Shown here in pieces: positions 4,105 to 18,231 of a DNA stretch of 22,432 bases. The notes beneath the pieces are model-generated. The model searched no databases. It was not told the DNA's origin and worked only from the letters and a program-made list of their open reading frames with translations. This DNA is from a virus: positions 1-22,432 of IMG/VR virus record IMGVR_UViG_3300048837_002016; one strand, written 5' to 3'. Numbering within the stretch: the first letter of the stretch is position 1; each line of letters begins with the position of its first letter. The translations under genes were made by a program, and so were the position numbers.

Positions 4105-5529
4105 TTACGGGGTCGGTGGGGGCAGCAAGAGCGGCGACGGATCGGAACCGAAGGTCAGCCCCAGCCGCTGTTCGCGTTCCCGGTCGGCAGCGATCTCGGC
4201 ATCCACCTGTTCGGCGTCATATCCACGCTCGGCCAGCGCCTGGGTGCGGCTTTTCAGGCCGGCACCGATCTGCTCGATCTCGGCCTTGGTGTCCTTCAGC
4301 GGATCGACCCAGTCCCATTTGGGCGGCAGCCAGGAGCAGGCGATGAAGGTGGAGCGGTTGCGTTCATAGCCGGGGATGTCGAGCGCCCCGGACAGCACGG
4401 CCACGTCCATCCAGCGTTGCCAGACCACGCGGCACATCTGGTGGACCATCACCGAGTGCTGCCAGGCTTCGACCCGGCGGCGGAACTCCAGCAGCGCCAT
4501 GCGCGAGTTGGAGTAATTGGCCTTCAGCATGTCATTGCTGAGGTAGGCGTAGGGCACCCCGGTAGCGGCGGAGATCTGCAACAGGGTGCGGTACTCGAAC
4601 GGCTCATAGGAGCCACCGACATCGGCGGGGGCCGAGGTCTGGATCTGTTCGCCCGGCTCCAGCGGCACCACCTGGCCGGGCTGGACATCGACGATGCGGT
4701 CGCCGGAGCCGTCGTCCACCACGTCGATCACGTCGGCGGGGGCCGGAGAGGTCACGAACATGGCGTACATGGCCGCGATCTTCTTGCGCTCCAGTTCGGC
4801 GTCGTCGTACTGGTCGAGCAGGAACAGCTTCACTACCGCCGGGGCCAGCCGGGAGACGCCGCGCAGTTGGCCGGATTCCACCGGGTCGATGACGTGGATG
4901 ATCTCGGACGCCGGCACCCGCACCGTTTCACCGGCCAGACCGGGATCGGTGAGATCACCGGGGTGGCGGCGCAGGAAATGGTAGGCCACCCGCCGGCCGA
5001 TGCGGTCGAACTCGATGCCCTGGCGGATGACGTTGCCGCTGCTCAGGGTCTCCGTCCTGGTCAGCGGCAGCATTTCCGACGGCAGCATCTGCAATTGCAA
5101 CGGCACCGACAGCCCGTCCTCTGGGCGACGGGGACGCAGGCGGAAGAACACTTCGCCCGCGATGAACACCTCCCGGGCGGCACGGCGCTGCTGGCCGTAG
5201 AAATCAGTCAGGCCCTCGGCATCGGACTCGTCGGTCCAGGCCAGCCAGAGCTGCTGCACCAAGGCTTTCAGATCCTTGTCGGCGATCAGCGAGGACGGCT
5301 TGATGCCGGTGCCTACCGCGTTGCCGGTCCAGCTTTCGGCGGCATTGAGGGCATAGCCGTTATTGCGGACCAGATAGCGGGCGCGGGCGGTGATATCGGA
5401 GCCGGCGGCGGCGATCAGGGTGTTGACATGGGCGCGGCTGGGCTGGAAGCCCTTGAGCCGGCGGCTGCCCTGGGCGGCCTCGAAGCCGCCGATCAGGGCG
5501 CCGATCCGCCTGCGCAGTCCCGACAGCAT
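4105..5529 (-). CDS. Portal protein, lambda gpB family
   Basis: A 474-residue portal protein, which forms the dodecameric DNA channel at one capsid vertex and anchors the terminase. Family-like segments are the start MLSGLRRRIGALIGGFEAA, ARYLVRNNGYALNAAESWTGNAVGTG near residues 42-67, FIAGEVFFRLR, IIHVIDPVESGQLRGVSRLAP, and YAYLSNDMLKANYSNSRMALLEFRRRVE. The C-terminus WVDPLKDTKAEIEQIGAGL is typical. The open frame continues upstream to 5889 over gpW and terminase DNA, but this N-terminal part is shadow sequence. The ATG at 5529 has AAGGG nine bases upstream; a GTG two codons earlier (5535) is an alternative. The C-terminus ends in a Pro-rich tail, LLLPPPTP. Confidence 0.93.
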   Translation of the reverse strand: MLSGLRRRIGALIGGFEAAQGSRRLKGFQPSRAHVNTLIAAAGSDITARARYLVRNNGYALNAAESWTGNAVGTGIKPSSLIADKDLKALVQQLWLAWTDESDAEGLTDFYGQQRRAAREVFIAGEVFFRLRPRRPEDGLSVPLQLQMLPSEMLPLTRTETLSSGNVIRQGIEFDRIGRRVAYHFLRRHPGDLTDPGLAGETVRVPASEIIHVIDPVESGQLRGVSRLAPAVVKLFLLDQYDDAELERKKIAAMYAMFVTSPAPADVIDVVDDGSGDRIVDVQPGQVVPLEPGEQIQTSAPADVGGSYEPFEYRTLLQISAATGVPYAYLSNDMLKANYSNSRMALLEFRRRVEAWQHSVMVHQMCRVVWQRWMDVAVLSGALDIPGYERNRSTFIACSWLPPKWDWVDPLKDTKAEIEQIGAGLKSRTQALAERGYDAEQVDAEIAADREREQRLGLTFGSDPSPLLLPPPTP

Positions 5530-5531
5530 GG

Positions 5532-5741
5532 TCACAGACCCTTGGTGGCGACAGCCAGGATGCGCCGACGGGGCTTCCTGCCCTCGGCCTGGGCGATGCG
5601 GCGGTCGAGGTCGGCCAGCACATGGTTGGCCTGGGTCAGGTCGTACTGGACGGTGCGGTCGCCAACGGTGACGCGGGCGACCAGGGAATTGCGCCGCGCC
5701 AGCACCCGCTCGCGCTCGGCCTTCATTTCGTCGAGGGTCAT
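5532..5741 (-). CDS. gpW-like head-completion protein
   Basis: A 69-residue protein between terminase and portal. This is the place of lambda gpW (68 residues), which caps the portal after packaging so that the tail connector can bind. Like gpW it has two helical halves separated by a short beta-type segment (VTVGDRTVQYDL) and ends with a basic stretch, RKPRRRILAVATKGL. The helices carry many Arg/Glu pairs (DEMKAERERVLARRN and ADLDRRIAQAE). It starts two bases after the terminase stop codon and ends two bases before the portal start, so the three are one translational unit. Primary sequence identity to lambda W is low; the call rests on size, secondary-structure pattern and position. Confidence 0.75.
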   Translation of the reverse strand: MTLDEMKAERERVLARRNSLVARVTVGDRTVQYDLTQANHVLADLDRRIAQAEGRKPRRRILAVATKGL

Positions 5742-5743
5742 GA

Positions 5744-7714
5744 TCAGTGCATCCCGCTGAACTTGATGATCCGCCGTGGGCGGCGGGCGATCCGGCGCAC
5801 CTGCCCGGCTTCGGGGTCACTGGTGCTGGCAACACCGGCCAGTTGCCCTTCCAGATCGCGCCATTTGGCCTCCGACCAGCGGTCGGCACCGGCGATCCAG
5901 GCAGCGGCGCGGGCGTAGACCCGGCAATCCAGCGCCTCGTTGCGCTCGCGCAGCTTTTGCCATTCCAGCTTGGAGAAGCCGCGGCGGTTTTTGACCGTCA
6001 CCAACTGCTCGGCGACGAACTGCTTGCACCACTCGGACTCCGCCCACGATGGCAGATGCACCGTTCCGGCCGGGAAACGGACCCCTTCGGCCAGTTCCTC
6101 GTCGGTGGGCCGCTCCAGCCGCAGGAAGCGGTAGGTCTCCGACTTGAAGGTGGACACCGCCACCGTCCAGAGGCGGGCACCACGGCGCACCTTCTTGCCG
6201 CCCTCGGTGGCATCGACCAGGGTGGGGCCGGAGACCGGGCTGGCGCGGTTGAAACCCTCGACGCCCTTAATCGGTGACACCTGGCCGACGCCCATCTTGC
6301 GGCCCCAGGTATAGACCGCCGAGGATTCGTAACCGCTGTCGATGGCGAGGCGAGCGATCTTGAGGGCCGCGCCGCTGGCATGGGTCCAGGTTTGCCCCAG
6401 CACCCGCTCCAGCGCCGCCCAGGTTTCGGCGTGTTCCGGCCCGCCGTCGATGACGATGTGATCGACCAGCCAGCTTTCCAGGTTGCGGCCCCAGGCCCAG
6501 ACGTCGATCTCGACCCGGTCCTTCTGGACGTCGGCCCCCGCGGTGAGGAACAGCCCGCCCGCCGGGACGATGCCGTTGGCCCAAGTTTCGCGGCGGTCGT
6601 AGAGCCGCTGCCAATCGGGCGCCTCGCCGGATTCGACCCAGGTTTCGCCCAGCACGGTGTTGCGGAACACCCTGAGCGCATCGTCGGAACCCTGCGCCGC
6701 TTCCCACAGGCGGGCGATGCTCTCCCACGACTGCCAGCCCGGCGGCGAATAGAGCGCCGAGATGTGGAAGCCGACGGTCCCGGGATCCTCGGCCACCGCC
6801 GTGGCCCGCCAAACGCCTTCCGCCAGCATTCCCGCCTTGGCCGATTCGCTGATCGGCTGGTCGCAGGACTCGCATCGGTAATGGACAGAGGCCGGCTGGC
6901 CCTTGTCCCATTTCAGCCGCTCGAATTTCAGCCACTGCATTTCGCCGCAATGGGGGCACGGCACGAAGAACCGCCGCTGGTCGCTGGCCTCGAATTCCCG
7001 CTCGATGCGCGACAGCCCGCGAATGGTGGGCGTCGAGACCAGGAACGCCTTGGCGCGATGGGCGAAGGTGGCCATGCGGGCGCAGGCCAGTGCCACCGGA
7101 TCACCCTCCTCGTCGGCCGAGGCCGGATAGGCGTCCACCTCGTCGAGGAACAGGTAGCGCGCCGGCATGGAGCGCAGACCCACCGCGCTGTTGGCGCCGG
7201 TCATCACCAGGGTGCCGCCGGGGAAGTCCTTCGACAGCATGGTGTTGCCGGCGTCGCGCGACCGGGCCGGCTTGACCCGTTCCCGCAGGATGGGGCTTTC
7301 GTCGATCAGGGTGTCGATGCGCTGGCGCGAATTGCGCTTGGCCATCTCGACGGTGGGCTGCACCGCCAGGACCGGGCCGGGGGCATGGTGGATGATGAAG
7401 CCAAGGAAGTTGTTGCCGGCCTCGGTCGCCCCGACCTGGGCGCCCTTCATGAACACCACCCGTCGGCAGGGATGCGACGGCGACAGGCAGTCCATGATCT
7501 CGCGCAAATACGGCGTGCGATTGGTGCGATAGCGGCCCGGTTCGGCGGAGGCGCGGCTCGACAGCACCCGGTGCTGGTCTGCCCATTCCGACACGGTCAG
7601 CCGCGGATCGGGACGCATTCCGTCGGCCCAAGCCGACAGGATCAGCTCCGCGCCGTCGAACTCACCGGAAATCCGGTTTGATGTCGGCGAGTTCGGCGAG
7701 ATGAGCGCGGACAT
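5744..7714 (-). CDS. Terminase large subunit, GpA family
   Basis: A 656-residue packaging motor with an N-terminal ATPase and C-terminal nuclease, close to lambda gpA in length (641). The Walker A-like motif is KGAQVGATE at residues 90-98, the form with Lys displaced to the front that is typical of this family. Walker B is YLFLDEVD at 187-194. A zinc-binding pair CPHC (253-256) and CESC (281-284) follows the STPTIRG motif. The nuclease domain begins at TAGADVQKDRVEIDVWAWG (391-409), with Asp395 a probable metal ligand, and a second acidic site lies at AIDSGYE. The ATG has GGAAG just upstream and lies inside the end of terS, giving a 53-base overlap. All catalytic motifs look intact. Confidence 0.94.
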   Translation of the reverse strand: MSALISPNSPTSNRISGEFDGAELILSAWADGMRPDPRLTVSEWADQHRVLSSRASAEPGRYRTNRTPYLREIMDCLSPSHPCRRVVFMKGAQVGATEAGNNFLGFIIHHAPGPVLAVQPTVEMAKRNSRQRIDTLIDESPILRERVKPARSRDAGNTMLSKDFPGGTLVMTGANSAVGLRSMPARYLFLDEVDAYPASADEEGDPVALACARMATFAHRAKAFLVSTPTIRGLSRIEREFEASDQRRFFVPCPHCGEMQWLKFERLKWDKGQPASVHYRCESCDQPISESAKAGMLAEGVWRATAVAEDPGTVGFHISALYSPPGWQSWESIARLWEAAQGSDDALRVFRNTVLGETWVESGEAPDWQRLYDRRETWANGIVPAGGLFLTAGADVQKDRVEIDVWAWGRNLESWLVDHIVIDGGPEHAETWAALERVLGQTWTHASGAALKIARLAIDSGYESSAVYTWGRKMGVGQVSPIKGVEGFNRASPVSGPTLVDATEGGKKVRRGARLWTVAVSTFKSETYRFLRLERPTDEELAEGVRFPAGTVHLPSWAESEWCKQFVAEQLVTVKNRRGFSKLEWQKLRERNEALDCRVYARAAAWIAGADRWSEAKWRDLEGQLAGVASTSDPEAGQVRRIARRPRRIIKFSGMH

Positions 7715-10904: not shown

Positions 10905-12164
10905 TCAGCCTCCGCCGTTACGTTCTGCAGCCAATTCGGAAAAGGGCCGTCCATCGCCATCCAGCACGGCAGCCTTGCCCGTTTCCTCCTGCCAGCGCAG
11001 CACGATGACATCGACGTATTTGGGATCGAGTTCCAGCAATCTGGCCTGCCGACCCGTGCGTTCACAGGCGATCATGGTGGTTCCGGAACCACCGAAGGGG
11101 TCGAGGACGATCTCACCCTCCCGCGAGGAATTGCCGATGGCCCGCGCCACCAGTTCCACCGGCTTCATGGTCGGATGGAGATCGTTCCGGGCCGGTTTGT
11201 TGATCGGCCAGACGTCTCCCTGGTCTCGGGCGCCGCACCAGTAATGACCGCCGCCTTCTTTCCAGCCGTACAGAATCGGCTCGTACTGGCGTTGGTAATC
11301 CGAGCGCCCCAAGGTGAAGGTGTTCTTGGCCCAGATGATGAACGTTGACCAGTGCCCGCCTGCTTCGAGGAATGCACTCTGGAGGGTGTGCAGTTCCGAC
11401 GAGGACATGCACATATAAACCGCGCCCTTGGTGACGGTTAGAATGTTGACGCAGACATCATACAGGAACTGCTTGAATCCGCCGCCCAGGGCGTCATTGA
11501 GGATGCGGCGGCCTTTGCCGCCCTTACCGGGGGCACCGTAATCGACATTGTAGGGGCTGTCGGTAAAACACATATCGGCGGGTGTGCCGTCCAGCACCTT
11601 TTCCACATCGGTCAGTATGGTGCTGTCGCCGCACAGTAGGCGGTGGCGGCCTAAAATCCACAGATCACCGGGCCGGGTCACTGGATCGGCGGGCGGTTCC
11701 GGGATCTCGTCTTCGTCCCCGTCGCCCTGGCCTTCGCCTTCATCGTCGAGGGGCGCCATCAGGGCGTCCAGTTCCTCGGCGGAAAAACCGATCAGATCGA
11801 GATCGTAGCCCTCGGCGTTCAGCGCATGCAGTTCCGCCGCCAGGGTTTCATCGTCCCAACCGGCGTTCAGGGCCAGCTTGTTGTCGGCCAGGATGTAGGC
11901 GCGGCGCTGGGCCTCGGTCAGATGGTCCAGGATCACCACCGGCACCGTGGTCAGGCCCAGGGACTTGGCGGCGGCCAGTCGGCCATGCCCGGCGATGACG
12001 TTGCCTTGGCTGTCGGACAGAACCGGATTGGTCCAGCCGAACTCGACCATGCTGGCGGCGATCTGGGCCACTTGGCTGTCCGAATGGGTCCGCGCATTGC
12101 GGCCATAGGGGATCAGCCGGTCGATGGGCCAAGCCTCGACCGTGTCGGGAAGCGGATGGGTCAT
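10905..12164 (-). CDS. ParB-domain N4/N6 DNA methyltransferase
   Basis: A 419-residue fusion of a ParB/sulfiredoxin-like N-terminal domain and an amino-methyltransferase. The ParB part shows RLIPYGRNARTHS (17-28), IAASMVEFGWTNPV and VIAGHGRLAAAKSLGL (56-71). An acidic linker covers 139-160. The catalytic motif IV is TDSPYNVDY (201-209), where DPPY or NPPY is normal, and the SAM-binding motif is LDPFGGSGTT (354-363), giving the motif IV-first order of the beta class. The target recognition region lies between them. The ATG overlaps the upstream cytosine methyltransferase stop (TAATG); an open extension to 12203 is ignored. Such fusions are common in phages, where they guard DNA against host restriction. 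Confidence 0.88.
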   Translation of the reverse strand: MTHPLPDTVEAWPIDRLIPYGRNARTHSDSQVAQIAASMVEFGWTNPVLSDSQGNVIAGHGRLAAAKSLGLTTVPVVILDHLTEAQRRAYILADNKLALNAGWDDETLAAELHALNAEGYDLDLIGFSAEELDALMAPLDDEGEGQGDGDEDEIPEPPADPVTRPGDLWILGRHRLLCGDSTILTDVEKVLDGTPADMCFTDSPYNVDYGAPGKGGKGRRILNDALGGGFKQFLYDVCVNILTVTKGAVYMCMSSSELHTLQSAFLEAGGHWSTFIIWAKNTFTLGRSDYQRQYEPILYGWKEGGGHYWCGARDQGDVWPINKPARNDLHPTMKPVELVARAIGNSSREGEIVLDPFGGSGTTMIACERTGRQARLLELDPKYVDVIVLRWQEETGKAAVLDGDGRPFSELAAERNGGG

Positions 12165-13777
12165 TATCGTTTTCCAACGTCCTGGATGCGTCGGCCCAGC
12201 CACGCCATCACCGGCACGGCCATGGAATTGCCCAGCGCCCGGTAGCGCGGGCCATCGGGACAGTTCTCGACTGTCTTCCGTCGCCAGGGGATCAGGGTGA
12301 AATCATCAGGGAAACCCTGGAGCCGCTCGCATTCGCGGGGTGTCAGGCGGCGCACCGCCATGTCGCGTTGGACCGCCAATTGCCCTCCGGCATTGTCGCG
12401 GCCCAAGGCGTTCATCGCCCGTAATGTCGGTGCTACGGTTCCGGCAGCAACCGGGGTCGCAGCCTTGCCGTCGAACGCCACATAGGTCTGCTGTTTGGTG
12501 CCCGGCTCCGCCGCCAGGGCGCCGGCAACATCCAAAGTACGGACTTCGTTCCGCTGGTTCTGGGCAAACGCCACGGCGTGCTGTTTGCCCGCCTGCAAGG
12601 TGAACATGGGATCGCCGTCACCACCGATGCCGCTCCCGGCACGGGGATCCGTGGTGCTGATTCCCGTGCGGGCACCTGCTTCCAGAATGGGAAACGCCAC
12701 CGGCACCAGCGGCGTGCCGCGTCCGGTGCCGTCTTCCGAGGCGTCGAAGCCCTCGCCGCGCAGGGAATGGGTGACCAGGGTGTCGATGTCGGGCCGGTGG
12801 GCGAGGTTCGCCTTGGCCCGCAGGGTGTGAGCGATCAGCGTATCGGTGCAGTCGCTGTCCACGCCGCGCGACAAATCGCGTGCCCGCAAGGTGGTGGCGA
12901 CGAAGGTCTCGCTCTCGAAATCCATCCGCCCGCTGGCCGAGGCACAGGCGTTGAGCGCCGTGGCGATTTCGATGGGGCCGGAAGTGTTGTTGCCGCCGAA
13001 CGCCTCGGCGATCAGTCCACCGCTGGTGGCGAAAGACGTTTCGCCGCTGCGGCCAGCGCGAGCATCAAGCGTGGGGGCAACAGCTTGTTCCGCTTCTCGG
13101 CGCGGCGGATGATCCCGGCGCACGCCTTCGCGCTCAAGAAGTACTTGGACGGGATCGGCCCGGTCTCCAGCACCTGCGATAACGAACACACGGCGGCGGC
13201 GTTGGGCCAGGCCGAAATATTGGGCGTCGAGCACCCGCCACGCGACTGTGCGCGAGGGTCCAAACACAACACCAGCGTCCGACCATTTGCACCCTGGCGG
13301 GACGAGCGGACCATCTTCTCCGGCCAATCCGCCCAGAAGGCATCCGAAGGCGTTGTCGCGGGTCGATAGGACTCCGGGGACGTTCTCCCAAACAACCCAA
13401 GCTGGATCGATGGCATCGGCGAGTTCCACGAATTTGAGGGCAAGATTGCCGCGGGAATCGTCCAGCGACTTGCGCAGACCCGCCACCGAGAACGCTTGGC
13501 AGGGCGTGCCACCCACCAGCACGTCGATCTTCCCCCGCCATGCCGAACCGTCGATGGCGGTCATGTCGCCCAGGTTGGGCACGGCGGGGTAATGGTGTGC
13601 CATCACGGCGGAAGGAAACGGCTCGATCTCGGCGAAGAGCGCCGCTTGCCAACCCAACGGTTCCCAAGCTGCCGTCGCGGCTTCGATCCCGCTGCACACG
13701 GAACCGTAAACCAGCCCCTGGGCGTGCGGGATCAAGCCGAGCGCCGGGGATACCGGCTCGGTGGGAGCGAGGTGCAT
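12164..13777 (-). CDS. DNA (cytosine-5) methyltransferase
   Basis: A 537-residue C5 methyltransferase with all main motifs: SAM-binding VYGSVCSGIEAATAAW (23-38), catalytic GGTPCQAFS with Cys93, ENVPG (131-135), AQRRRRVFVIA (191-201), LTPRECERLQGFPDDF (478-493) and ALGNSMAVP (514-522). The target recognition region between motifs VIII and IX is long (about 275 residues) and contains a degenerate repeat with a TL.A core. Phage enzymes of this type methylate cytosine in phage DNA and protect it from restriction. The frame is open upstream to 13984, but that part crosses the GTGGTA repeats and is low complexity, so the ATG at 13777 is preferred although no good ribosome site precedes it. Confidence 0.92.
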   Translation of the reverse strand: MHLAPTEPVSPALGLIPHAQGLVYGSVCSGIEAATAAWEPLGWQAALFAEIEPFPSAVMAHHYPAVPNLGDMTAIDGSAWRGKIDVLVGGTPCQAFSVAGLRKSLDDSRGNLALKFVELADAIDPAWVVWENVPGVLSTRDNAFGCLLGGLAGEDGPLVPPGCKWSDAGVVFGPSRTVAWRVLDAQYFGLAQRRRRVFVIAGAGDRADPVQVLLEREGVRRDHPPRREAEQAVAPTLDARAGRSGETSFATSGGLIAEAFGGNNTSGPIEIATALNACASASGRMDFESETFVATTLRARDLSRGVDSDCTDTLIAHTLRAKANLAHRPDIDTLVTHSLRGEGFDASEDGTGRGTPLVPVAFPILEAGARTGISTTDPRAGSGIGGDGDPMFTLQAGKQHAVAFAQNQRNEVRTLDVAGALAAEPGTKQQTYVAFDGKAATPVAAGTVAPTLRAMNALGRDNAGGQLAVQRDMAVRRLTPRECERLQGFPDDFTLIPWRRKTVENCPDGPRYRALGNSMAVPVMAWLGRRIQDVGKR

Positions 13778-13787
13778 GATGGTCGCC

Positions 13788-13931
13788 GTGGTACGGGGTG
13801 GTACAGGTGGTACAGGGGTGGTAGCCGAAAGGTCGGCACCTGGGTTGGCTACCACCCGGCCGGAAAGCTCGAAAGGCGCGCTTTCCATCGACAAACGCGC
13901 CTTCCGGGGTGGTAACTGGTACGGGGTGGTA
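13788..13931. repeat. GTGGTA short-repeat array upstream of the cytosine methyltransferase
   Basis: GTGGTA occurs six times on the plus strand (starting at 13788, 13798, 13807, 13818, 13909 and 13926) and once inverted (TACCAC, 13850). The first four are spaced 9-11 bases, about one helical turn. The longer word GGGTGGTAGCC is exact at 13816-13826 and 13924-13934, and inverted at 13847-13857. The array ends 10 bases before the methyltransferase ATG, where a cooperative regulator could sit. Confidence 0.75.
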
Positions 13932-14112
13932 GCCTTGATTTTTCGGCTGTCGCTAGCGAAGTTCGGCGCTGATGCCCCCCGCATAGCAAAAGTGCCCGGG
14001 AGGAACCAATTTCCGTCCGGTTTGCCTTGACTTGTACTTTTGTTGCTCTCGTCCTGGGCGGCGGATCATTTGTTGACCGTCTTCGCCGCCCCTCGCGAGC
14101 CTTGATCCATCT
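13932..14112. other. Non-coding gap between DUF6362 and methyltransferase genes, with hairpin
   Basis: I see no gene here. A perfect 10-base palindrome TCGCTAGCGA lies at 13950-13959. An 8-base inverted repeat, GGGCGGCG (14057-14064) and CGCCGCCC (14085-14092) with a 20-base loop, lies just after the end of the DUF6362 gene. On the minus strand no T-run follows, so it is not a typical intrinsic terminator. The promoter for the methyltransferase cluster may lie in this gap. Confidence 0.45.
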
Positions 14113-14592
14113 CTATCGCAAACCGGCCTCGCTCGCCATCCTCTGCGATGTATCGATACACTTTTCGCTTTCTTCCGCTGCCCTGGTGCGGGCGATCAGA
14201 TCGACCTTGGAGATGTGCTTGGGGATGCGGCGGCCGTTGAGCGTCCAGGCGATGACGCACAGCGCGAACAGCCAATGCCGGTGGGCGGCGACGCGGGACA
14301 GGCCGACCTTCCAGCAGATCACCTTCCACGGCTCGCCATCGGCCCGCAGCCAGACGATCCGGGCATCGACGGGATCGAGGAGTTGGAGCCACGGCAAGGC
14401 TTCGTCCATGCGGGTGATGGCGGCGGCCGAGGGCGGAGGGCGGCGGAACGTCACATCGTCCGTCGACCGGCATTCCTGGATGTAGGGCGGCCAGGTGCTG
14501 GCATGGCCCTGAACCCGAACCTCGGGCAGTCGGGACAGGGTGTCGGCGGCTTCGGCGAAGCGTTCCTCGACCAGGGAGGGCGTCCAGGTCAT
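14113..14592 (-). CDS. DUF6362-family phage protein
   Basis: A 159-residue protein with the DUF6362 layout: WTPSLVEERFAEAADTLSRLPEVR at the N-terminus, WPPYIQEC, ITRMDEALPWLQLLDPVDARIVWLRA, and a helix-turn-helix-like stretch PWKVICWKVGLSRVAAHRHW followed by ALCVIAWTLNGRRIP. The pattern K.I....GLSR..AHR.W resembles sigma-factor region 4 or small DNA-binding regulators, so late-gene regulation is possible but unproven. The start at 14592 is set by the ATGA overlap with the resolvase stop. The frame is open upstream to 14787, but that part is shadow sequence. It is the last gene of the replication operon before the repeat array. Confidence 0.8.
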   Translation of the reverse strand: MTWTPSLVEERFAEAADTLSRLPEVRVQGHASTWPPYIQECRSTDDVTFRRPPPSAAAITRMDEALPWLQLLDPVDARIVWLRADGEPWKVICWKVGLSRVAAHRHWLFALCVIAWTLNGRRIPKHISKVDLIARTRAAEESEKCIDTSQRMASEAGLR

Positions 14593-15056
14593 TGGGCACC
14601 TCCCTGGGTGTCGATGACCCAGGTGAGGATCGCCAACGCGTCGGCCTCGTTGTCGTCGGCGGGGTGGTGACCGCGTGCCTGCATGGCGGCGATCACCGCG
14701 TCCTTGCCCGCATTGCCCTTGCCGGTGGCGTGGCGCTTGATGGTCCCGACCGGTACACCCTGGTACGGGATGTGTTTCAGTTCGCACCAGGCGGTGAGAT
14801 GGGCCAGGAAGCCGCCATAGATGTGGGCGGCGTCGGTGCCGGCATGGCGGCGGACTTCCTCGAAATGCAGGAGGTCGATCTTCTTGGCGGCGAATTCCAG
14901 GTGGTCGAGCCAGGAGCGGAAGCGTAGGAAACGCATGCCGCCGCCTTCATAGCGGCCGGGCTTGAATTCCATGGTGCCGGAAACGACGGAACCATCGGCC
15001 AGACGCATGGCCCAGCCGGTGGTGGAGCCCAGATCAAGGGCGAGGATGGTGGTCAT
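14589..15056 (-). CDS. RuvC-like Holliday junction resolvase
   Basis: A 155-residue protein with the RNase H fold of RuvC-type resolvases. The first catalytic Asp is Asp8 in ILALDLGSTTGWA, the Glu is at 66-67 in LLHFEEVRRH, and the C-terminal pair lies in ADDNEADALAIL (Asp135 and Asp139). The IP..GVPVGTIKRHATGKGNAGKDAV stretch matches the central signature of phage resolvases. Such enzymes cut branched replication or recombination intermediates before packaging. The ATG at 15056 is the first codon before the conserved strand; no clear ribosome site is seen. It is the first gene downstream of the iteron region, and its stop overlaps the DUF6362 start. Confidence 0.9.
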   Translation of the reverse strand: MTTILALDLGSTTGWAMRLADGSVVSGTMEFKPGRYEGGGMRFLRFRSWLDHLEFAAKKIDLLHFEEVRRHAGTDAAHIYGGFLAHLTAWCELKHIPYQGVPVGTIKRHATGKGNAGKDAVIAAMQARGHHPADDNEADALAILTWVIDTQGGAQ

Positions 15057-15147: not shown

Positions 15148-15461
15148 GTCCCAACGTCCCAACCTTTTTGGCCTTTTGAAACATTTTCCCGGCAGGGAAT
15201 ATTTACGGCATATAGGATGTGTGGCCATCAGCAACACACAACCAATATGGCGCATTTTTCTTTTCCCTCACAAACTCTCAAAGAGGTTGGGACGGATGGG
15301 ACGGTTGGGACACAGCCTGGATTTCTGCGGTTTTCCGGCGTCCCAACCTCAAGCCGGAGGTTGGGACGATTGATGGAGGTTGGGACGGATGGTCAACCGA
15401 CCGGACGGGCCGACGTCCCAACCTCGTTCCGGCCATTGCGGGAATGGATCGGGGTTGGGAC
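15148..15461. repeat. GTTGGGAC iteron region, candidate replication origin
   Basis: Nine exact copies of GTTGGGAC lie in 314 non-coding bases. Plus orientation starts are 15286, 15304, 15360, 15379 and 15454; inverted copies (GTCCCAAC) start at 15148, 15156, 15340 and 15415. A variant, GATGGGAC at 15295, makes three tandem 9-base units GG(T/A)TGGGAC at 15285-15311. Between the first inverted pair and the rest, about 15164-15284 is AT-rich with T-runs (CTTTTTGG, CATTTTTC). Iterons beside an AT-rich block next to a primase-helicase gene are typical of replication origins. An operator array for the resolvase promoter is the alternative. Confidence 0.7.
15340..15367. repeat. Perfect 11-base inverted repeat within the iteron region
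   Basis: GTCCCAACCTC (15340-15350) and GAGGTTGGGAC (15357-15367) are exact reverse complements separated by six bases (AAGCCG). The arms each contain one iteron, so the structure places two binding sites face to face or forms a cruciform. It lacks a following T-run on either strand. Confidence 0.8.
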
Positions 15462-15675: not shown

Positions 15676-18231
15676 TCAGCTTGGCACTCGATAACGCCAT
15701 TCCCGGCTGGCGACACCGTTGCGGTACCGCTCCCACTTCCTGGCCTTCAGATACGCCGAGACCCGCATCTGCTCGCTTCGTCCCCAACGGCCCGGCTCGA
15801 TGCCAATGGCATGCTGGAGGATTTCGCTGACCGACACATCGGTGAGCGGTTGGGATCGGGCCACTTCCACATCGCACCAATCGTCGTAGACGCCATGGCC
15901 GCGATTGATCCGCTCCTTGTCGTAGACCAGCCAGTGGTCGATCAGCCCGTCCCAGGCATCGCCCTGATAGCGCTCTTCCTGCTCGGCTTCGGCTTCACGC
16001 CTGGTGTCCTCGTCGATGATCCACCATTTGACACCCTTGGCGTACCAGGCCATCGCTTCCGCCCAAAGCTGGTCACGGTCGCGGCGGAGCGCGTCAATGT
16101 CGATTCGGCCGCAGCGGACGGGCCAGAAGCGGCGGTTGCCGGTTTCATCGCGCAGGTAGGTGTCGGGATTGACGCTGCCGGCGAACACGCATTGGCGCGG
16201 CACATTGATGACGTAGCGGCCGTAGGGCGGGCGGTAGCGGTCGATGGTGCGGGTCAGAAACGACTTGATGCGAGACACCTCGGCGCGGCCGATGGCGTCC
16301 AGTTCGGCGATCTCGATGATCCAGACGCCGCACATCTGCTGGGCGGCATCCTTGCTGCCGATCTCGGCCAACTCGTCGGTGAACCAATCGGCCCCCGCCA
16401 ATGTCCTTAGCGCCGTGGATTTTCGTGCGCCTTGCGGTCCTTCCAGGATCAGCATGTGGTCGGCCTGGACACCCGGGTCCATGATTCGGGCCACCGCCGA
16501 GACCATCCACAGGGGGGCGAAGGCGCGATTGAGACGGGTGTCGGCCGCGCCCAGATAGGTGATGGCCCAGGCTTCCAGCCGGGATACGCCATCCCATTTC
16601 AGGGCGGTCAGATAGTCCCGCACCGGATGGACACGGTTCTGGCGCGTGACGGCGCTGATGCCGCGAGCGACCACGGCGGGAGAAATGTTGATGTCGCGGC
16701 GCTGGAGCCATTCGGCGCAACGGACATCGTCGGAATCGGACCAGGGGCGTGGGAACGCGGTGCCGTCATCCCAGGGCAGCGGACGGTTGACCATGATCTC
16801 CTGACGGAATTCGTCGAATATCAATGCCCCGGCGAAGGCCTGATCATGAGAAATGGCCGTGATGACGTTGGCCTCGTTGCGCTCGGGATTGCCGTCGGGG
16901 CCGGTGCGGATCCGGTCGAACCATGCCGGGCGGACGGATTGGGTGCCATCACCGTTGCGCAGTTCCCGTCGAAGCGCCGCGAGGTGCTTCTCGGTGGTGG
17001 CAATCGGAATGCGGGCCGCCGCCTTGATGGCCGTCAACACCTCGCGTTCATGGGCCGGTTCGAGCCTGGCGCGGGCAAGCTGCCCCAGCACCCGGCTGAA
17101 TTCGTCCATGTCGGGCGGAAAGGTCAGCTTCAGCGCCGCGGCGCGCAGATCGTTGAACCCGGTGAGCGGAGGCGGCTCCGGCAGCCTGTTATAATGTGCG
17201 ACGACCGCGCCCTTGCCGAGGTCGTCGTTGAAGTCGTCGCCGTGCAGGGGCGAGACGATGGTGGACGGGATGTCGGCTGCGTTGAGACGGTCGGCCAGAG
17301 TGGCGGCGGCCTGCTGACCGGCGTCGCCGGCATCGGCGAAGATGGTGACGCGGGTGGTGCCCTCGGGCCATTGCCATTGACGGATGCCATTGGCCGACAG
17401 CGCCGCCCAGGTGGGCACGTTGAAGATGGCCCAGGCCGACAGGGCGGTTTCGATGCCCTCGGCGATGCCCAGGTGACCGTCGGTCGGCATGGGGGCGAGG
17501 CGGACGCTGCCGTTCTCGACCGCGCCCAGCATCTTCTTGCCCGGAGGCGCCTTGCCCGAGCCGTCTTCCAGCAGGAAGGTGCGGTGAATGCCGCCCACCA
17601 GATTGCCGGCGCCGTCACGGACGATGCCCACCAGCCCCGGCCAGCCGCGCCGGCCGTCGAAATCGGTGAGATCGTCGTGGTATAGCAGATCGGGTGATTG
17701 GGGATCGCCGACACCGCGGTTCTTCAGGTAGGCCTCGCCGACGGTGCCGGCCAGCGGCAGGACACAGCCAAGGATGCGGGCGATCTCCAGGGAATGATCC
17801 TGCTCCTTGTCGCGCGGCGGCTTGGCCGGAGCGGGGCGCGGCAACGGGCTGTCCATGCGGGCCAGTCGCGCCGCCTCGCGGAACAGGTCGCGACCCGACA
17901 AGCCGGTGACGATCTGGATCAGGTCGATGGGGCCGGCGCGTTCGCCGGTGGCATGGTCGAATCCCGTTCCGGCATGGGGGCCGGACAGATCAAGGACGCA
18001 CGATCCCAGGTTCCGGGGCGGATCGCCGCGCAGATTGGCGCAGCGCAGGGATTTTCGGTCCGGCTGCATCCTGGCGTTGGGGAATAGGCCCGGCAGCCAA
18101 TCGCGGGCGGTGTCGGCCAGCCGGTCACGGATTTCCTCCAGGTCGAATTCGCTCTCACCGTCCGATGACGGAAACCAGTGGCCCAGGATGGCACCGGGCG
18201 GTGGGGGCTGGATGGTGTTGAGGTCGATCAT
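15676..18231 (-). CDS. Toprim primase plus VapE/D5-like helicase
   Basis: An 851-residue replication protein joining two enzymes. The N-terminal half resembles phage primases: a DUF7146-like region, then a Toprim domain with GIAEGIETALSAW (255-267) and FADAGDAG (298-305). The C-terminal half is a VapE-like superfamily 3 ATPase with Walker A EGPQGARKST (597-606), Walker B WIIEIAELD (637-645), RTIDRYRPPYGR and FAGSVNPDTYLRDETGNRRFWPV (683-705). The Walker A has Arg603 where the Gly before Lys is usual. Such proteins open the origin and prime replication. Its ATG overlaps the helicase stop (ATGA), and its 3' end borders the iteron-bearing gap. Confidence 0.9.
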   Translation of the reverse strand: MIDLNTIQPPPPGAILGHWFPSSDGESEFDLEEIRDRLADTARDWLPGLFPNARMQPDRKSLRCANLRGDPPRNLGSCVLDLSGPHAGTGFDHATGERAGPIDLIQIVTGLSGRDLFREAARLARMDSPLPRPAPAKPPRDKEQDHSLEIARILGCVLPLAGTVGEAYLKNRGVGDPQSPDLLYHDDLTDFDGRRGWPGLVGIVRDGAGNLVGGIHRTFLLEDGSGKAPPGKKMLGAVENGSVRLAPMPTDGHLGIAEGIETALSAWAIFNVPTWAALSANGIRQWQWPEGTTRVTIFADAGDAGQQAAATLADRLNAADIPSTIVSPLHGDDFNDDLGKGAVVAHYNRLPEPPPLTGFNDLRAAALKLTFPPDMDEFSRVLGQLARARLEPAHEREVLTAIKAAARIPIATTEKHLAALRRELRNGDGTQSVRPAWFDRIRTGPDGNPERNEANVITAISHDQAFAGALIFDEFRQEIMVNRPLPWDDGTAFPRPWSDSDDVRCAEWLQRRDINISPAVVARGISAVTRQNRVHPVRDYLTALKWDGVSRLEAWAITYLGAADTRLNRAFAPLWMVSAVARIMDPGVQADHMLILEGPQGARKSTALRTLAGADWFTDELAEIGSKDAAQQMCGVWIIEIAELDAIGRAEVSRIKSFLTRTIDRYRPPYGRYVINVPRQCVFAGSVNPDTYLRDETGNRRFWPVRCGRIDIDALRRDRDQLWAEAMAWYAKGVKWWIIDEDTRREAEAEQEERYQGDAWDGLIDHWLVYDKERINRGHGVYDDWCDVEVARSQPLTDVSVSEILQHAIGIEPGRWGRSEQMRVSAYLKARKWERYRNGVASREWRYRVPS

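Follow-up and report, generated by a model that had tools for sequence, protein, structure and literature searches.

The origins of PICIs, SaPIs included, directly follow the 3' end of the initiator gene and consist of two iteron sets arranged around an AT-rich region, a layout stated to be common to no other known bacterial replicon (PMC6092414), and SaPI Rep recognizes its origin through the C-terminal domain (PMC7581432). The Cch2 helicase of SCCmec also binds, via its C-terminal domain, iterons located downstream of its own gene, in a putative origin (PMC7581432). P4 alpha is described in PMC4234260, which cites Ziegelin and Lanka 1995 and Yeo 2002, as a single protein that combines a Toprim-type primase, a helicase, and a C-terminal winged helix that binds origin repeats; in iteron plasmid origins (RepA/RepE), the sites for the initiator are repeated next to an AT-rich unwinding element (PMC4980987). 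Here we analyze an iteron array that, given its architecture and the homology of the adjacent helicase, is very probably a self-loading initiator-helicase origin of the PICI/SaPI and P4 type, with predicted replication activity, in a tailed phage.

The stretch of DNA analyzed (hereafter, the window) is a viral contig of 22,432 bp with 66% GC. A word scan reproduced the initial annotation of nine exact copies of the 8-base word GTTGGGAC in 314 non-coding bases (15148-15461), five on the plus strand and four on the minus strand; no Pfam match was obtained for the open reading frames running across it, which appear to be spurious, and an Rfam search of the window yielded no match. The excess over chance, claimed in the same annotation, is borne out: the local base composition predicts 0.013 copies per 314 bp, the dinucleotide-shuffled 22.4 kb sequence contains 0.86 copies on average and 4 at most, and unrelated 8-mers reach no more than 5 copies in any 314-bp stretch of the window. 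The sole other copy (11853, minus strand) is indeed in a coding region, inside an N4/N6 methyltransferase gene. In host genomes, the word is not generally enriched: there are 22-74 copies per ~4 Mb, the counts being at or near those of the reversed-word control in two of three genomes and ~1.3 times higher in one. Eight of the nine copies start with GG, which defines the iteron unit as GGTTGGGAC.

The copies are split around an AT-rich block, as had been noticed. Two head-to-tail iterons on the minus strand (starts 15148 and 15156) make up the left set (15148-15163), and seven copies lie to the right: two (starts 15286 and 15304) in a plus-strand tandem of three 9-bp units (15285-15311), which reads exactly GGTTGGGAC-GGATGGGAC-GGTTGGGAC, GGATGGGAC being a variant copy, followed by single iterons at 15340-15347 (minus), 15360-15367 (plus), 15379-15386 (plus), 15415-15422 (minus), and 15454-15461 (plus). 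The block itself (~15164-15285, 122 bp), with 42% GC in its middle against 66% in the window, is a candidate melting site judging from the GC profile and the geometry in relatives. The array begins 214 bp and ends 528 bp past the stop codon of a VapE gene, and a RuvC-like resolvase gene (14589-15056, minus strand; phrog_159) comes next, 3' of the array, in agreement with the placement between primase-helicase and resolvase given initially.

The VapE gene (15676-18231, minus strand) encodes an 851-aa candidate initiator in which Pfam identifies Toprim (PF13362), DUF7146, and VapE helicase (PF05272) domains. AlphaFold models of this protein end in a winged helix (residues ~797-851; 15679-15843, minus strand), the predicted origin-binding domain, with a pLDDT of 89.5 for residues 425-851 and 91.3 for the last 93 residues. 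The helicase part is homologous to SaPI PriRep1, the structure of which was solved with dsDNA (7PDS; phmmer E 3.9e-49; Foldseek E 4e-31; VIA Z 32.2, rmsd 4.1 over 398 residues). The winged helix alone produced only weak matches to the PDB in Foldseek, and VIA ranked 7PDS second (Z 6.2 over 75 residues) in a tie with unrelated winged helices, so that this match says no more than "winged helix".

The array is not a peculiarity of the window. Viral contigs were searched for a pattern of three GTTGGGAC copies with short gaps and for a mixed-strand pattern, which 85 and 15 stretches matched, respectively; most of the arrays that have at least seven copies, distributed over both strands, either have a VapE gene nearby, with a product 32-64% identical to that of the window, or show the same spacing in contigs in which the VapE position falls beyond the fetched stretch. 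The initial annotation would have taken related phages that share the primase and lack the array as a refutation. Such a lack is true of the word: VapE relatives that are 63-74% identical, found by protein search alone, have no GTTGGGAC array. It is not true of the array, because another word, one that follows the VapE C-terminus, is repeated in the same place. Thus, close relatives carry different bidirectional 8-10-mer arrays, of GGTGGGAAC, GGTGGTGAC, GTTGGTGAC, GGTGGGACA, or GGTAGGAC, and the words at the position of the window array are GTGGGAAC in L009, GTGGTGAC in L010, GTGGTGCA in L011, GTGGGACA in L012, and GTTGGTGAC in L013-L015.

When VapE loci were gathered without reference to any word, and an 8-mer occurring at least five times in 500 bp was sought within 4 kb downstream, arrays were detected in 187 of the ~275 loci with enough sequence (redundant contigs counted), the maximum in 40 shuffled regions being 4. 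About one-third of the loci have no array within 4 kb at the chosen threshold, which is explained in part by arrays that are located farther off (~4.1 kb in L303/L441) or have diverged. The lowest-GC 50 bp, searched for in the array and 600 bp on each side, fall inside the array in 72 of 85 loci, and in 58 of the 85 the iterons beside the lowest-GC block point outward on both sides, as they do in the window. Bidirectional arrays, each with a word of its own, also occur 3' of VapE-type genes in named phages (L353, L354, L358, L359, and L360), namely, Marinobacter phage PS3 (GTGGGGTGACC), Pseudomonas phage vB_Pae_U5 (GTGGGACA, GTAGGACA), Rhodobacter phage RcAqua (AGGGTGAG), Yersinia phage YeP5 (GGTTGTCT), and Paenibacillus phage Bob (TGTTGCAG); by the same measure, Emery, VarioGold, and Aval have weak arrays or none. 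A class-wide genome search added few full-length relatives.

The word scan also turned up GTTGGGAC in other settings. Clusters 33-46 bp after helicase genes of other families, with initiators that look unrelated, were found next to DUF5906 (L025, 4882-5044; L092, 1381-1403) and DUF927 (L100, 8545-8627 and 13604-13686). In L023, L056, L060, and L093, the repeats are one-directional, spaced by multiples of 3, and inside long open reading frames; these are probably coding repeats unrelated to origins.

A strong connection between the array and VapE comes from the way in which the word changes. We labeled the iterons of 85 non-redundant loci (VapE proteins less than 95% identical) by their left half, GGTT versus GGTG/GGTA, and right half, TGAC (with an extra T) versus GGAC, and ranked 820 alignment columns by the fraction of label entropy explained; the truncated L160 protein and the loci L158, L278, L115, and L276 did not enter the statistics, having been removed by hand. 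For the left half, the best of the 820 columns is 818 (0.91), with R in 46 of 47 GGTT loci and K in all 38 GGTG/A loci, ahead of 825 (0.71) and the next column (0.43). The right half is best predicted by 837 (0.98, against 0.65 for the next column), with Q in 26 of 26 TGAC loci and R or K in 59 of 59 GGAC loci. All four combinations of the halves are present among the loci. In the AlphaFold models, 818 opens the recognition helix (R818 in the window; codon 15778-15780, minus strand), 825 is two turns further in the same helix (S825; 15757-15759, minus strand; S/T/A/G as opposed to always G in the GGTG/A types), and the wing carries 837 on its first strand (R837; 15721-15723, minus strand).

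On a tree built from VapE residues 1-790, that is, with the C-terminal domain left out, the left label switches 18 times and 818 switches as expected in 17 of 18 disjoint pairs, and the right label switches 6 times, accompanied by 837 in all 6. Neighboring genes track the left base poorly in these loci: for RuvC, Dda, DUF6362, DUF6511, and SSB, the top-scoring columns explain 0.12-0.28 of the left-half label entropy, compared to 0.88-0.98 for VapE, and for the methyltransferase 0.36, compared to 0.97. The suggestion in the initial annotation that the DUF6362 protein might be the alternative binder finds no support, its best column reaching 0.21 in loci where VapE reaches 0.98; RuvC, which likewise fails to track the left base, was rejected as a binder as well and stays outside the proposed recognition. 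For the right half, columns of the methyltransferase (0.88) and SSB (0.71) score too, and with only six changes of the right label, the signal is due in part to co-inheritance with the remainder of the genome; the left half is therefore the cleaner evidence.

The pattern at 818 and 837 was spotted by eye before the columns were ranked, which is countered in part only by the held-out loci. For these, the rule was fixed in writing before a new scan, and among the scorable loci, those with a recognizable array and a VapE protein less than 95% identical to the training ones (several are 80-94% identical), it was right for the left half in 14 of 14 and for the right half in 12 of 12. There are exceptions to the 818 rule: in a distant clade, K is found with GGTTGGGAC (L057 and L079), and the rule also fails in Yersinia phage YeP5 and once inside the family (L298). 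L158 and L276 (R/R) have ATGGGTCC-like repeats, a poor fit to the code. In L278 and L115 (R818, Q837), the predicted TTGGTGAC was found nearer to VapE, in 3 and 2 copies. The first pick of the script as the iteron of L158, L278, and L115, GGTTTCCA, was discarded, being actually a second array beside the methyltransferase gene. Outside the scored set, L444, in which VapE is a 35% identical relative, contains AGGTTGTGACA 10 times downstream; with R and Q at the positions of 818 and 837, it fits the code, although the label rule could not score this locus.

A second, different bidirectional array is present in the window itself, at 13789-13934 (core GGGTGGTA/GGTGGTAC, an 8-mer in 5 copies), near the start of a C5-cytosine methyltransferase gene. 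In a comparable place, the same word is found in L009, L274, and L275, and GGTTTCCA in L013, L114, L277, and L349, so the word of the second array also varies between relatives.

Taken together, these observations make it likely that a two-position code joins the winged helix of the initiator to the iterons across a large phage family, whereby R or K at 818 reads GGTT or GGTG/GGTA, and Q or R/K at 837 reads TGAC or GGAC. Such a code, switched repeatedly, would render co-resident prophages blind to each other, as incompatibility groups, and would make the iterons predictable from the protein; in the literature searched, it apparently has not been described so far. Two prophages in one genome, that of Magnetospirillum sp. 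SS-4 (L274 and L275), encode VapE proteins that are 86% identical and carry different words, GGTAGGAC and GTGGGAAC, so that their origins are possibly mutually blind; if the origin and code are as proposed, this suggests that prophages sharing a cell avoid interference by changing the iteron word.

The initial proposal of a replication origin stands as by far the best reading of the array, and we hold it to be highly probable that this origin is bound by the phage's own Toprim-VapE protein via the winged helix. We strongly infer, from comparison of sequences, that VapE physically binds the iterons: the C-terminal winged helix would engage GGTTGGGAC, with the left part read by the recognition helix (R818, S825) and the right part by the wing (R837). 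Acting like SaPI Rep and P4 alpha, Toprim-VapE would then assemble as hexamers at the iteron sets flanking the ~120-bp AT-rich block, the block would melt, the protein would load itself as the replicative helicase, and the Toprim domain would make primers. What the computation shows is the array, the architecture, the homology to PriRep1, and the co-variation of the word with the two residues; of the steps, recognition alone has support of its own here, whereas melting, self-loading, and priming, and hence initiation, are proposed because homologues act in this way.

Other readings of the array have to be weighed against this one. An operator, at which VapE or another protein would control transcription of the RuvC-DUF6362-methyltransferase genes while replication starts elsewhere, would accord with the array preceding the next codirectional gene and with the fold of the winged helix, which is like that of MarR-type repressors. 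However, with nine copies spaced widely about an AT-rich block, the array has the look of a PICI origin (PMC6092414) and not of an operator, different genes come after it (RuvC in most loci, terminase or others elsewhere), and the protein with the matching residues is the helicase itself. We therefore consider a purely regulatory role improbable, although VapE may regulate its own expression on top of the origin role. A parS-like partition site, bound by the ParB-N domain of the N4/N6 methyltransferase or by another protein, is less probable still: parS clusters can be repeated, and there is a ParB_N match in the methyltransferase, but no ParA or separate ParB gene is present among the genes examined, the methyltransferase tracks the left base poorly (the above 0.36 against 0.97), and in relatives the array goes with VapE, not with the methyltransferase. 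The domain in question is N-terminal and ParB_N-like, in a gene (10905-12203) that adjoins those for the C5 methyltransferase and a PD-(D/E)XK nuclease-like protein.

Recognition during packaging, at a pac or cos site, is brought to mind by four loci (L057, L072, L077, and L079) in which the array lies between the VapE and terminase genes, but in most loci RuvC follows and the terminase is far off, and the array word tracks VapE residues, so this option seems as unlikely as partition. Chance or coding repetition, such as accounts for the one-directional, in-frame GTTGGGAC clusters elsewhere in viruses (L023, L056, L060), has a negligible probability in the window, given the 0.013 copies expected, the location on both strands of non-coding DNA, and the recurrence of the array at the same place in independent phages.

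If the array is an origin read by VapE, then for an entire family of prophages, mostly alphaproteobacterial, in which the origin is, as far as we could find, unannotated so far, sequence alone would suffice to locate the origin and name its initiator. The two-residue code, if true, would supply naturally occurring orthogonal initiator-origin pairs and would offer a direct test of origin choice by self-loading helicases. Furthermore, the PICI-type layout would not be peculiar to satellites but would be employed by tailed phages, too, which bears on the source of PICI replicons.

Among the known systems, iteron plasmids resemble the window in that repeated sites lie beside an AT-rich element. 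Initiators of the RepA/RepE type are not helicases, however, unlike the candidate initiator of the window, and use iterons that are, for the most part, ~20-bp direct repeats. SCCmec Cch2 shares with the window the location of the iterons downstream of the helicase's own gene and the C-terminal domain as the reader, a predicted one in the window, but its iterons are three in number and 5 nt long, and its primase, of the polymerase type, is a separate protein. With P4 alpha, the window protein shares the combination of a Toprim-type primase, a helicase, and a C-terminal winged helix (PF13362, PF05272, and the model). It differs in that its helicase is of the VapE/PriRep1 type, and no P4 sequence or structure, P4 alpha included, is among the matches listed by phmmer, Foldseek, and VIA. 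The crr of P4 is a second copy of its iteron array, whereas the window contains no second copy of the same array.

The PICI/SaPI system is matched in several respects: the array is directly 3' of the primase-helicase gene (214-528 bp past the stop), two sets of short iterons (2 and 7 copies) surround the 122-bp AT-rich block, and the helicase is homologous to SaPI PriRep1 (7PDS; E 3.9e-49, Z 32.2). The C-terminal winged helix of the window protein is predicted to be the origin reader, as the strong co-variation with 818 and 837 suggests. The differences are that the primase part of the window protein is Toprim and that the contigs of the relatives contain terminase and portal genes of phages and are not satellites. 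Two large open reading frames of the window (5744-7714 and 4105-5889) match the terminase large subunit and portal genes of related phages (named by reading, not by family search); with these genes present, the origin is of the PICI type but the element itself is not a PICI. The iteron word family, GGTTGGGAC and its variants, was not found in the literature searched, where the listed matches to GTTGGGAC are unrelated primers or sequences and no paper joins VapE and iterons; the initial statement that no described origin has this word thus holds within that literature. The tailed-phage loci analyzed here argue against the claim that the layout is exclusive to PICIs (PMC6092414). This kind of origin has already been described (PMC6092414, PMC7581432). 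Two things appear to be new within the literature searched: that a large family of tailed phages has it, and the two-residue code.
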